Origin: Ruminococcus sp.
GTDB lineage: Bacteria; Bacillota; Clostridia; Oscillospirales; Acutalibacteraceae
Assembly (NCBI GenBank): GCA_017403985.1
Contig: JAFRDE010000041.1
Span: 1 to 64,000, forward strand
Length of the DNA stretch: 64,000 bases
Direction: 5' to 3'
In this document: positions 13,265 to 61,575 of the stretch, one piece after another
Layout of the letters: each line of letters starts with the position of its first letter
Position numbering within the stretch: the first letter of the stretch is position 1
The notes under the pieces: generated by a model
What the model saw: the letters and a program-made list of their open reading frames with translations, nothing else
Databases searched by the model: none
Told to the model about the DNA's origin: nothing
Position numbers and translations under genes: made by a program

Positions 13265-13999
13265 ATGTCAGGACATAATAAATGGAGCACCATTAAACAG
13301 AAAAAGGGTAAGAACGACGCGGCGCGCGCAAAAGTATTCACCAAGATCGGCAGAGAGCTGATGGTAGCGATCCGCGACGGCGGCAGCGCCGACCCGAACG
13401 TCAACTCCAAGCTCAGAGACTGTATCGCCAAGGCGAAAGCGGCTAACGTGCCGAACGACAACATCGAGCGCATCATCAAGAAGGCTCAGGGCGGCGAGAC
13501 AGCCGACTACGAGTCCGTCACCTACGAGGGTTACGGTCCCTGCGGCGTAGCGGTCATCGTAGAAGCGCTGACCGACAACCGCAACCGTACCGCCGGCGAG
13601 GTCAGACATTATTTCGATAAGTTCGGCGGCAACATGGGCACCCCCGGCTGTGTCAGCTTTATGTTCTCCAAGAAGGGCGTGCTGATCATCGAGCGCGAGG
13701 AGCTCGACAAGGACGAGGACACCGTGATGGAAGCAGCATTAGAAGCGGGCGCATCCGACTTTGAGGCTGACGAGGATATTTTCACCATCTACACCGAGCC
13801 CGAGGATTTCGGCGCGGTACGCGACGACCTGCAGGCGCAGGGCTACGAGTTCGCCTCCGCAGAGGTCGAGCAGGTCCCCTCTACCTACACCAAGATCGAC
13901 GATCCCGACGCGCGCGTCCAGATGCAGAAGATGCTCGACATGTTCGAGGATAACGACGATATCCAGAACGTCTGGCATAACTGGGAAGACGCGGAATAA
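13265..13999 (+). CDS. yebC: YebC/PmpR-family translation or transcription factor
   Basis: Cytoplasmic YebC family; members are described as DNA-binding regulators and, more recently, as ribosome factors easing polyproline stalls. GHNKWSTIKQKKGKNDAARAK at the start and YEGYGPCGVAVIVEALTDNRNRT in the middle are family signatures. The protein is acidic (244 residues) with GC-rich codon choice suggesting high expression. It is monocistronic, with its own promoter and a terminator at 14051-14081. Confidence 0.95.
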   Translation: MSGHNKWSTIKQKKGKNDAARAKVFTKIGRELMVAIRDGGSADPNVNSKLRDCIAKAKAANVPNDNIERIIKKAQGGETADYESVTYEGYGPCGVAVIVEALTDNRNRTAGEVRHYFDKFGGNMGTPGCVSFMFSKKGVLIIEREELDKDEDTVMEAALEAGASDFEADEDIFTIYTEPEDFGAVRDDLQAQGYEFASAEVEQVPSTYTKIDDPDARVQMQKMLDMFEDNDDIQNVWHNWEDAE

Positions 14000-14007
14000 T
14001 ACAAATT

Positions 14008-14040
14008 GTCATTGCGAGGGCAACGCCCGCGGCAATCTCA
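14008..14040. repeat. Palindromic intergenic repeat, family 1
   Basis: GTCATTGCGAGGG to GGCAATCTCA, in the opposite orientation to the copies at 6451 and 22977. It lies between the yebC stop and the terminator. Confidence 0.75.
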
Positions 14041-14081: not shown

Positions 14082-14777
14082 TTATATGTTCTGATTCAGT
14101 TTTGACAAGTATTCCTCAAATTCTTCCTTTGTAAACAGGCAGTTGATCGCGGCGATCATCGCGTTCACGGTCAGATAGCGAGGCAAGCCCAATGAAGCGA
14201 GCACCTCTTCCCTATGCTGAGCCGCGTTCGCACAGCCGGTCAAGCCGTAGTCGTAGAAATCGAGTTTGGTGATCGTATTATCAATGGGTTTCTCCCTTTG
14301 GTCGATCAAATCATACAATCCCTCACCCGCTTCCGCGGGAGCTCCCTTTACCAAAGGGAGCCTATCTTCCATAATATGAGCGCCGCTCTGACGGATTGCT
14401 TCGAGCAGTTTTTCACGGTCGATACCCTCTACGCCTAAGATACCTTCTTTCGACGCTTCCGGTTTGCGCTTTTCCTTACCCTCGACAGTCGGAATGTAGG
14501 CGTGCAAAATCTGCTCCTGCGGTACGATGCCGCGCAGGAAGTTGCGGATCACAAAGCCCGCCGAATCCACGTCAGTCATCACCAGTATACCGCGGCGTGC
14601 CGCTACCGCGCGGATGAGCGTTTGTTTTTCCTTATCCTTGAACACGCGAAAGCCGCCGGTCTCGATGATCGGACTCGCGATCAGCTCGCTAAGGCGTATC
14701 CTATCGTAGCGTCCTTCGACGATGACGGTTTCTTTCAGGTGGATTTTGGAAAAAGGGAGCCTGTATTCTTCAATCAT
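14082..14777 (-). CDS. rnmV: Ribonuclease M5 with a repeat-derived insert
   Basis: TOPRIM-domain RNase that matures 5S rRNA. The N-terminal TOPRIM part shows ETVIVEGRYD (catalytic Glu) and GILVMTDVDSAGF (metal-binding Asp pair). The C-terminal DUF4093-like part has NTITKLDFYDYGLTG and REEVLASLGLPRYLTVNAMI. At 231 residues it is about 40 longer than Bacillus RNase M5. Part of the excess, the segment RLPLVKGAPAEAGEGLYDLI between the domains, is encoded by a complete family-2 palindromic repeat (14302-14364, 63 nt) in frame. The ATG at 14777 lies 9 nt after GGAGG and overlaps the holA stop by 8 nt. No frameshift or stop is seen, so the gene is probably functional. Confidence 0.9.
   Translation of the reverse strand: MIEEYRLPFSKIHLKETVIVEGRYDRIRLSELIASPIIETGGFRVFKDKEKQTLIRAVAARRGILVMTDVDSAGFVIRNFLRGIVPQEQILHAYIPTVEGKEKRKPEASKEGILGVEGIDREKLLEAIRQSGAHIMEDRLPLVKGAPAEAGEGLYDLIDQREKPIDNTITKLDFYDYGLTGCANAAQHREEVLASLGLPRYLTVNAMIAAINCLFTKEEFEEYLSKLNQNI
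14302..14364 (-). repeat. Family-2 palindromic repeat inside rnmV
   Basis: The element has the same outer hairpin (CTCCCTTTaccAAAGGGAG) and the same 24-nt end (TCGATCAAATCA..., 14302-14325) as the intergenic copy at 53474-53535. The inner hairpin is CCCGC/GCGGG here and GTCAC/GTGAC there. It is 63 nt long, 21 codons, without a stop in the gene's frame. Confidence 0.88.
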
Positions 14778-24445: not shown

Positions 24446-24468
24446 TAGGTTCGCCTTCGGCGTAAATT

Positions 24469-24522
24469 CATACAATTCCTCAGTCGCCATACGGCGACAG
24501 CTCCCTTTACCAAAGGGAGCCT
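24469..24522. repeat. Family-2 palindromic repeat ahead of iorA
   Basis: CATACAATTCCTCA, inner hairpin GTCGC-CATACG-GCGAC, outer hairpin CTCCCTTTACCAAAGGGAG. It ends some 20 nt before the iorA start, next to its ribosome site. Confidence 0.8.
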
Positions 24523-24542
24523 TGAAGAAAGGCAAGATGCAT

Positions 24543-26853: not shown

Positions 26854-26857
26854 TTAA

Positions 26858-26880
26858 GCCTCCCTTTTCCAAGGGAGCCT
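26858..26880. repeat. Remnant of a family-2 repeat
   Basis: GCCTCCCTTTTCCAAGGGAG outer hairpin only, 5 nt after the iorB stop. It may act as a 3' stem for iorB mRNA. Confidence 0.5.
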
Positions 26881-49542: not shown

Positions 49543-49590
49543 GTAGGGACGGTCATTGACCGTCCGCGGACGAGCAATGCTCGTCCCTAC
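49543..49590. repeat. Palindromic repeat, family 3, overlapping the rluB stop
   Basis: GTAGGGACGGTCATTGACCG...CGAGCAATGCTCGTCCCTAC: two inner hairpins closed by GTAGGGACG/CGTCCCTAC. The TAG stop of rluB (49587-49589) lies inside the element's right end. Confidence 0.85.
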
Positions 49591-51522: not shown

Positions 51523-51570
51523 CAACCCTCCGGCTCCTGCGAAGCCACCTCCCTTAGAAAAGGGAGGCTA
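51523..51570. repeat. Family-2 repeat ending in the ytfJ stop codon
   Basis: CAACCCTCCGGCTCCTGCGAAGCC inner part (51523 onward) and outer hairpin CTCCCTTAGAAAAGGGAG, then GCTA. The TAG stop of ytfJ (51568-51570) is the element's terminal triplet. Confidence 0.7.
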
Positions 51571-52777: not shown

Positions 52778-53431
52778 TTACGTACCTTCTACCGCTTCGG
52801 TGACGATTTCCTCGACCGTTCCGGTCACGGTACCGTCGTCGGATGATTCGGTCGATTCGGTTTCTTTTTCGCCGTCGTTCTCAAAGATACTGAGCTGTTT
52901 GCCTCTGCCGCCCTTGTCCTCATCCTTCGGGATGGGAGGCAGCTCGTCCAGCGAACGGATGGAAAAACAGCGCAGGAAATGGTCGGTGGTGCCGTACAGC
53001 AGCGGTCTGCCGGGCAGCTCCAGACGTCCCTTTTCCTCAATCAGACCCTTCGTCGTCAGGGAACCGATGACGCCGGAGCAATCCACGCCTCTGACCTGTT
53101 CGACAAAGCTCTTGGTAACGGGCTGGTTATAGGCGATAACGGCAAGCACCTCCATCGCCGCCTGTGACAGCGGGATGTTGCGCCTGAGATCCATTGCCTT
53201 ACGCACCTGCGGCGCGTATTCTTTGACGGATACCATCTGGAAACTGTTATTCAGACGGATAATCGTGATGCCGCGGTCCATTTCGGCGTATTCATCCATC
53301 AGGATGTTCAGCTGTGTTTCCACGGCGCTTTCGGGTAATTTCAAGGTTTCAGCCAATCTTTTGATATCTACGGGATCGCCCGCCGCAAAAAGTATTGCCT
53401 CTATCGAGGACCGATATTCTTTTTCTGTCAA
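52778..53431 (-). CDS. scpB: Condensin subunit ScpB
   Basis: Kleisin-interacting winged-helix subunit of the SMC-ScpAB chromosome condensin. SSIEAILFAAGDPVDIKRLAE, LSQAAMEVLAVIAYNQPVTKSFVEQVRGVD and RLELPGRPLLYGTTDHFL are strong ScpB signatures. It has 217 residues with an acidic tail, from TTG at 53431 behind GGAGGGG. A family-2 repeat separates it from scpA. Confidence 0.95.
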   Translation of the reverse strand: MTEKEYRSSIEAILFAAGDPVDIKRLAETLKLPESAVETQLNILMDEYAEMDRGITIIRLNNSFQMVSVKEYAPQVRKAMDLRRNIPLSQAAMEVLAVIAYNQPVTKSFVEQVRGVDCSGVIGSLTTKGLIEEKGRLELPGRPLLYGTTDHFLRCFSIRSLDELPPIPKDEDKGGRGKQLSIFENDGEKETESTESSDDGTVTGTVEEIVTEAVEGT

Positions 53432-53473
53432 AGCAACCCCTCCAAATAATTGAATATAGTTTCTCGCTTTACT

Positions 53474-53535
53474 CGATCAAATCATACAATCCCTCAGTCA
53501 CTCCGTGACAGCTCCCTTTACCAAAGGGAGCCTAT
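53474..53535. repeat. Family-2 palindromic repeat between scpA and scpB
   Basis: Best intergenic copy: TCGATCAAATCATACAATCC, inner hairpin GTCAC-TCC-GTGAC, outer hairpin CTCCCTTT-ACC-AAAGGGAG, then CCTA. It shares its first 24 nt and outer hairpin with the copy inside rnmV. Confidence 0.9.
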
Positions 53536-53541
53536 GGGATA

Positions 53542-54315
53542 TCATTTTTCTATCATGCTGACGGTAGCGCTGTCGCCCTCGCCCTCGATGCGGATGCGCT
53601 TGCCTTTGACAAGCTCCAGCACCGCCAAAAAGGTGGCGACAAGCTCGCTTCTGCCGTTGCTGGAAACGAACAACTCGCGGTAAGTCACGGTCCTGCCGTG
53701 CCACAGGCGGCGCATCACATGAATGATACGCGACGACACGGACACGATCTTCCTGCTGACGATGCCCTCAAAGGCGGAGCGGTCAGGCGGGAGTCGGCGC
53801 TGACCGCGTCCGACAGCACTGACATACGCCGCGGAAATATCCATAGGATCGTGGATACGGTTATAGGTCAGATCGAAGTCGACCTCGGACGGCTCCTTGG
53901 TAAAGGTGTCGAAGTCGACCATCGGCGCGAGCATCCGCGCGATCTCACGGCACTGCTGATACTCGATCAGCTGTCCGGTCAGCTCTTTCTTCAGATCCTC
54001 CGCCTCGTCCTCGTACTTCGGCAGAAGCATCGCGGACTTGATATACACCAGCCGCGAAGCCATCTCGAGGAACTCGGACGCGATATCCATCTCATTCTCG
54101 CGCATGAGCTCGATCTGTTCCATATACTGCTCAAGGAGCTCAGCGATCGGGATATCGTAGATATCGATCTTATTCTTGATGACCAGCGTCAACAGCAGGT
54201 CGAGCGGTCCTTCGAAAACGTCGAAATGATAGGTGAACTGCTGTTCGCCGACCTGTATCGTTGCCGCGTCGGAGGGCAGTATGGTGATCTGACTATTCTG
54301 TTGTTCAGGCATCAT
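53542..54315 (-). CDS. scpA: Condensin kleisin subunit ScpA
   Basis: Kleisin that bridges SMC heads. FDVFEGPLDLLLTLVIKNKIDIYDIPI at the N-terminus, SEFLEMASRLVYIKSAMLLP, and the C-terminal winged helix (RSELVATFLAVLELVKGKRI) are typical. It has 257 residues behind AGGAGGG. It is the second gene of the M50-scpA-scpB unit. Confidence 0.96.
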   Translation of the reverse strand: MMPEQQNSQITILPSDAATIQVGEQQFTYHFDVFEGPLDLLLTLVIKNKIDIYDIPIAELLEQYMEQIELMRENEMDIASEFLEMASRLVYIKSAMLLPKYEDEAEDLKKELTGQLIEYQQCREIARMLAPMVDFDTFTKEPSEVDFDLTYNRIHDPMDISAAYVSAVGRGQRRLPPDRSAFEGIVSRKIVSVSSRIIHVMRRLWHGRTVTYRELFVSSNGRSELVATFLAVLELVKGKRIRIEGEGDSATVSMIEK

Positions 54316-61359: not shown

Positions 61360-61388
61360 AAGCCCGCCCCATAACATGGGACAGGCTT
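61360..61388 (-). terminator. T-box-controlled terminator of the alaS leader
   Basis: AAGCC(C)GCCCCAT-AAC-ATGGGACAGGCTT stem with TTATTTTTTG after it on the minus strand. It shares bases with the antiterminator region. Confidence 0.85.
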
Positions 61389-61393
61389 GACCT

Positions 61394-61575
61394 GCGGTAC
61401 CACCCAAATTGCCGTATCAATGATACGACCGCTCAGATCTCTTTAACGCAGAGTTACGCCGCGCTTTCACACGGAGGCTCAGGGGTGGCTGCGTATACTT
61501 CCCGTAAGGTCTTTCACCGACCGACCTCTCTCTGCACCGGGGGGCGTAAACGCTCGTCCCATCACAGCCGAAATA
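61394..61575 (-). ncRNA. T-box riboswitch (alanyl-tRNA)
   Basis: The minus strand carries the T-box GGGTGGTACCGC (61394-61405), pairing site for the tRNA acceptor end, just before the terminator. Upstream is a long stem-I region with AGAGAGAG/GGTCGGTCGGTGAAAGACC elements. Uncharged tRNA-Ala should stabilise the antiterminator and raise alaS expression. I could not place the specifier codon with certainty; GCA or GCC in ATACGCAGCC is a candidate. Confidence 0.9.

Follow-up and report, generated by a model that had tools for sequence, protein, structure and literature searches.

An in-frame copy of a dispersed palindromic repeat in an RNase M5-like gene of Ruminococcus sp., and repeat-bearing linkers in its relatives

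The window analyzed here, the whole stretch of 64,000 nucleotides, contains on its minus strand an open reading frame for a protein of 231 amino acids (14082..14777) that matches the TOPRIM and DUF4093 families and is referred to below as rnmV. A preliminary description of this DNA had identified the gene as encoding RNase M5. The solved RNase M5 structures 6tg6 and 6tpq match the TOPRIM part of the product and the C-terminal domain matches DUF4093 (57.6 bits, cut-off 25); the score against the NCBIfam equivalog model for RNase M5 (TIGR00334, 47.3 bits) lies under the cut-off of 110.65, so the safer name "RNase M5-like" is used. A protein search of the organism's own genome (E up to 0.001) returned one match to the product. 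The gene upstream of rnmV presumably corresponds to holA and the gene beyond it to yebC, both by resemblance. Between rnmV and an ORF ending at 13999 is a repeat of a family termed E2 (CATTGCGAGG...GGCAATCTCA; 14010..14040, plus strand), members of which are found within rnmV itself in related species.

The gene carries an internal copy of another repeat, E1, that spans GGCTCCC to GAGAAACC (14362 down to 14287, 76 nt) and includes two hairpins: GGCTCCCTTT-GGT-AAAGGGAGCT (14340..14362, minus strand), identified by an exact core match and its fold, and CCCGC-GGAA-GCGGG (14326..14339, minus strand), identified by its fold and by a stem that covaries in other copies. The frame is open across the repeat and reads RLPLVKGAPAEAGEGLYDLIDQREKP. 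Because the copy is 76 nt long when lined up with the other copies in the genome, 26 codons are assigned to it (residues 139-164; 14286..14363, minus strand), an assignment also based on the linkers of relatives that lack the insert. The 63 nt and 21 codons first reported were therefore too few; the stop-free, in-frame reading and the location between the TOPRIM and C-terminal domains were correct, the insert occupying the linker before DUF4093. A probable older E1 remnant, AGGCTCCCTTT, is present at codons 6-9 (14752..14762, minus strand), where the nearest relative (locus L109) has a complete E1. The N-terminus is 24 codons shorter than that of L109, and on this comparison it looks as if an older E1 was lost from it by in-frame deletion.

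The 23-nt core of E1, AGCTCCCTTTACCAAAGGGAGCC, has exact matches at 14340, 24499 and 53510, as expected from the earlier proposal that one repeat occurs within rnmV and at two intergenic places; there was no match in 100 shuffled versions of the window. The two intergenic copies, previously placed at 24469-24522 and 53474-53535, are present but longer, with boundaries set by eye at about 24448..24521 (minus strand, ahead of an ORF at 24541) and about 53458..53532 (minus strand, between ORFs 53542-54315 and 52778-53431); the names iorA, scpA and scpB given to the flanking genes in the preliminary description are putative. The reverse strands of both copies do start with RLPLVKGA, as had been noted. 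With up to 3 mismatches allowed, the core occurs at 79 places in the genome (a draft of 2,681,941 bases, 2.68 Mb, in 63 contigs), among them variants such as ACCTCCC..GGGAGGC, and the reversed pattern occurs at 0; in this respect E1 is a dispersed family of the kind represented by the Rickettsia palindromic elements (RPEs). A search of the window against Rfam returned only one T-box, the leader at 61374-61574 (minus strand), and one tRNA.

When 72 distinct sites are lined up, E1 consists of AA, hairpin 1 (GGCTCCCTTT.gg.AAAGGGAGCT), hairpin 2 (13-27 nt) and TGAGGRATTGYA, after which come a short stretch rich in A and T, a third, small stem, GAGAWACC and TT. The modal length at these sites is 78-79 nt and the overall range about 75-80 nt, the rnmV copy having 76 nt. 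The ends are AAGG/CCTT-like at most, with a consensus that starts AA-GGCTCC and finishes ACC-TT. In the 27 distinct 16-nt versions of hairpin 2 (34 of the 73 rows, whose loops differ in length, are outside this comparison), 95.7% of cells are paired, compared with 82.8% after shuffling, and 0 of 1000 shuffles were equally high; the stem is kept by compensating changes, and E1 is a stem-loop element, again as RPEs are. Per E1 site 2.86 of 6 frames are open, against 2.48 for dinucleotide-shuffled sequence (200 shuffles, highest value 2.77), and every site (71/71) has at least one; the repeat is somewhat stop-poor. Further inverted copies of the form AGCCTCCCTTTT..AAGGGAG are found at 26857-26877 and 51549-51569 and are perhaps truncated members of an E1/E4 superfamily (E4 has an E1-like hairpin with a different tail). 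A sub-class of E1 (L086, L088, L090, L097, L101, L104 and L106) is enclosed in a more extended inverted repeat, TTAAGAA/TTCTTAA (about TTAAGTTAAGAA ... TTCTTAACTTAA), which might represent a larger MITE or a frame resembling a terminator.

Tail sequences could be recognized at 77 distinct E1 sites in the genome, 11 of which fall in mechanical ORFs (35 codons or more on each side of the repeat). Five of the 77 are in genes recognizable on both sides, namely rnmV, birA, a trmN6-like methyltransferase gene, murF and metH, and all five are in frame; the four besides rnmV are likewise conserved genes. Among these copies both strands of the element are used, and it is read in three or more frames. 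NCBIfam scores for birA_ligase and murF are above cut-off, metH was submitted as a fragment, and trmN6 gave a weak match only; the trmN6-like name is in part our own presumption. Orthologues from up to 13 other genomes of the same genus were compared for the four genes. The insert is absent from all 13 rows for birA, from all 12 informative rows of 13 for the trmN6-like gene (truncated L213 dropped) and from all 12 rows for murF (L230, a weak match to another protein, dropped); the murF site of L218 and L219 holds short peptides of another kind (ARMDDSVE and ARMDDPAE), in which no repeat is recognized. Among 11 rows for metH, one has a separate E1 of its own elsewhere in the linker and one has E2. 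All five genes, rnmV included, consequently combine an in-frame copy with orthologues that lack it. The metH linker that holds E1 in this genome holds an in-frame E2-like repeat in genome G044 (L234) and an independent E1 in G017.

From five other genomes, 60 stretches were fetched, giving 64 distinct E1 sites (part of their copies). ORFs span 13 of these, and four are in family-matched genes: hflX, asnB, metH and an FkbM-family gene, in which E1 precedes the recognized domain. The other nine had no Pfam match (an antisense ORF in L247 aside). Six remaining ORFs across E1 in the organism's own genome and four in other genomes were also considered; nine of the ten lack a Pfam match (those of L017 and L285 were searched as about 400 residues only), and they are probably not genes. 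The tenth, in L006, was left uncounted, the SpoVAD match there lying only downstream of the repeat. At L006:938-1771, E1 and an E2-like repeat are upstream of, and frame-open with, a SpoVAD-like C-terminal part; the N-terminal part is absent from the frame, perhaps through a frameshift or rearrangement.

E1 core matches were detected in 30 of 118 related genomes (23 of 72 in the genus), with 0 control matches in all 118. In this count the genome described here has 69 places, G063 66, G017 49, G012 40, G044 25 and G035 15; G078, from another family, has 30, and a sister version (CTTGTGTAAAG) is present in some low-count genomes. Two further families are dispersed in the same way with 0 control matches: E2 (65 in G017, 52 in G012, 48 in G035, 8 in our genome, none in 4 of 14 genomes) and E3, a GTAG-headed palindrome (106 in G012, 104 in G017, 60 in G044, 43 in our genome, none in 3 of 14). 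A GTAG-headed double palindrome, GTAGGGACGGTCATTGACCGTCC...GGACGAGCAATGCTCGTCCCTAC, is REPIN-like and is located in the window at 49543-49590. E1 or its GCCTCCC variant E1b occurs in rnmV of our genome (linker), G044 (linker) and G035 (N-terminus), which have 69, 25 and 15 E1 copies; no genome with 0 copies has E1 in rnmV among those counted, and G004 (0 places) has a linker without it. In G063 the rnmV linker is empty despite 66 copies, so abundance of E1 alone is insufficient to fill the site.

The rnmV comparison covers the best 80 relatives' loci of a longer list, all from MAGs or drafts, 79 of which are readable (L139 could not be parsed, and the pattern mis-cut the linkers of L126, L137, L152, L161 and L175). 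The nearest named records among them, MAGs of gut origin and in many cases obtained from ruminants, bear the labels Ruminococcus, Clostridia or Clostridiales; NCBI assigns one relative, Ruminococcaceae bacterium P7, to Oscillospiraceae. The stretch from SGAH to ITK.DF has mostly 21-23 residues in relatives and is long in one clade. Alleles with and without an insert both exist, as the preliminary description had foreseen. A recognizable repeat is present in the linker at 9 of the 79 readable loci, in addition to our gene and L036, and at the remaining 70 there is none. The repeats, assigned by eye from the peptides both here and at the N-terminus, are an E1 variant, E2, E3 or E4, single or in tandem, and all are in frame: E3 in L109, L112 and L119; E1b in L110 and L111; one or two copies of E2 followed by E4 in L114, L116 and L117; E3 and E4 in L121; and, in L036, E2 with a nested E4-type element, then E3. 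Our gene has E1, shared at this position by none of the loci read. The linkers of L113, L115, L120, L125 and L127 exceed the common length of 21-22 residues with no recognized repeat. The N-terminus of rnmV is a second entry site, with E1 in L109 and L036 and an E4-type copy in L117; in L111, L112 and L114 an E1 tail stops immediately before the start codon. L117 and L114 have E2 in in-frame tandem, each species with its own versions of the unit, which suggests expansion or replacement within rnmV.

On a tree of 24 rows built from the rnmV core and HolA (HolA in 23 rows; linker excluded; the five overlong linkers scored as "none"), the state of the linker changes at least nine times. Our gene (E1) and its sister L109 (E3) differ at the linker (fork support 97/92). 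The E1b and E2+E4 linkers are common to two sister groups in crosswise fashion (forks 88/75 and 91/90, neither starred), and the linker blocks of L116 and L114 differ at only 4 of 108 sites, compared with 76.5% likeness at TOPRIM third positions. Given the crosswise linkers and this near-identical block, exchange of linkers between species has likely added to insertion. The same data would favor the stronger reading that linker variety is mainly the product of ready-made linkers swapped between species by recombination and not of repeated insertion. We regard that as unlikely: swapping leaves the first arrival of each family and the nested and tandem copies unexplained, and the E1 linker of our own gene has no counterpart among the loci read.

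The inserts might alternatively be useful, the loop tuning RNase M5 or the mRNA hairpins permitting autoregulation, so that hairpin repeats were selected in rnmV. The intact hairpins of our copy, and the arrival of three unrelated hairpin families (E1/E4, E2 and E3) in one linker among near relatives, speak for such a role, but it is improbable: E1 is also found in murF, metH and birA, the metH linker is likewise a recurrent site, most of the readable loci have no recognizable linker repeat, and the peptide varies among most carriers. The signal of selection on the peptide is mixed, with 9 of 14 differences at third positions in the E3 linker shared by L112 and L119, and 6 of 9 changed codons non-synonymous in the E1b insert of L110 and L111. 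It is equally doubtful that rnmV in this gut clade acts as a standing trap, in which unrelated stop-poor repeats would act as interchangeable linker cassettes, open to capture, duplication, in-frame trimming and transfer between species, with their mRNA hairpins or protein loop adjusting RNase M5 output. Chance likeness, an assembly artefact or a dead gene is scarcely credible even in a draft of 63 contigs: the reversed and shuffled controls gave 0 matches, on which a chance origin is rejected, the same kind of insert is found in separate assemblies of other species, and a pseudogene is rejected, as rnmV has no stop or frameshift and its C-terminal domain is intact, with DUF4093 matched. Neither that frameshift nor the presence of the same residues in repeat-free relatives, either of which would have told against the preliminary description, was found.

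Very probably, then, E1 is a mobile repeat whose rare copies within genes survive only in places that leave the frame open and where the protein can accommodate a loop. E1 would be a non-autonomous palindromic element, about 75-80 nt long and forming three stem-loops, that spread, chiefly between genes, through an Oscillospiraceae-like genome; its rare entries into genes would still be seen only if the frame was kept, no stop was introduced and the loop was tolerated. Greedy ORFs make the window about 90% coding, and only 5 of the 77 sites in the genome are in genes in spite of this, suggesting that nearly all hits on genes were lost or avoided. Survival would then hinge on a tolerant site, such as those between recognized domains of rnmV, metH and birA; in rnmV the tolerant places would be the TOPRIM-DUF4093 linker and the N-terminus, where copies of E1 and at least two other repeat families would have gone in, with subsequent in-frame trimming, duplication and, probably, transfer from one species to another. 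We infer that E1 transposed actively in the past, that purifying selection determined which in-gene copies survived, and that the repeat-derived peptide is translated with a near-neutral effect on the enzyme.

The possibility that a Y1 or RAYT transposase accompanies E1 was considered and rejected. The Y1 transposase family (PF01797) has 0 matches in our draft genome and is present in 61 of the 118 genomes, and E1, E2 and E3 are absent from the flanks of nine relatives' Y1 loci that were fetched (about 1.5 kb per side, several ending at contig ends). No target duplication is clear by eye at the three sites of our genome with empty relatives beside them (trmN6-like, murF and metH).

RPEs, in the available text of PMC2229807, are Rickettsia elements 105-146 bp long whose terminal inverted repeats measure 12 bp; the first report gave 19 reading frames with palindromes fused in frame, intergenic copies also occur, and one RPE-bearing enzyme stayed active with a changed affinity. 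Compared by description with that text, E1 is alike in lying in frame within conserved genes and between genes, and differs in its length of about 75-80 nt, its three small stems and its setting in gut-type Clostridia. REP-decorated genes, as portions of PMC3733652 describe them, occur in several species; the inserts lengthen the products by 20-30 residues, a single gene can hold two of them, and a site in Xanthomonas recB is shared. The GTAG/CGTC REPs of those portions are like the present system in having in-ORF copies, and E3 begins with GTAG; E1 and E2 are unlike them, neither tag being visible by eye at either repeat, and E1 has no GTAG or CGTC at a hairpin foot and, as noted above, no RAYT/Y1 partner. 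Several unrelated families in one linker do not appear in the REP-in-ORF section of PMC3733652, and the available main text of that paper has 0 occurrences of "clostridi" and "firmicutes". Bacterial MITEs such as ERIC/RU-1 and Correia are small non-autonomous repeats with open frames that become fused to genes (PMC2229807, in part); E1 may differ from them, as its ends are at most AAGG/CCTT-like and no target duplication could be made out by eye.

The preliminary description had drawn a parallel with Rickettsia. As a way of working the parallel is apt, but in-frame palindromic repeats have been published well beyond that genus, in enterobacteria and Neisseria among others (parts of PMC2229807, PMC10969869 and PMC3733652). 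The available text of the RepRanger paper (PMC12306157) has 0 occurrences of "clostridi" and "ruminococc". No such element in Clostridia, Faecalibacterium or Ruminococcus was found among the literature matches listed, the scope of which excludes subscription journals and preprints; to that extent the earlier remark that the process is little described in Clostridia was borne out, and this silence is weak evidence of absence. Wolbachia palindromic repeats are reportedly protein-coding palindromes outside Rickettsia. On our best reading, E1 in rnmV resembles the RPEs of Rickettsia and the REP-decorated ORFs; the mode is already known, and its clostridial setting is apparently new.

The range of palindromic repeats that code for protein, for which Rickettsia is the best-known source, would thereby extend to gut-type Clostridia. 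For the annotation of these genomes, peptides such as RLPLVKGA or HCEE..WQSQ can be repeat-derived. Across related species, one and the same enzyme can be compared without an insert, with a single repeat and with repeats of several families; this natural series bears on which positions of a protein accept foreign peptides, and it allows one to ask directly whether the inserts are carried along neutrally or supply material from which new protein segments arise.
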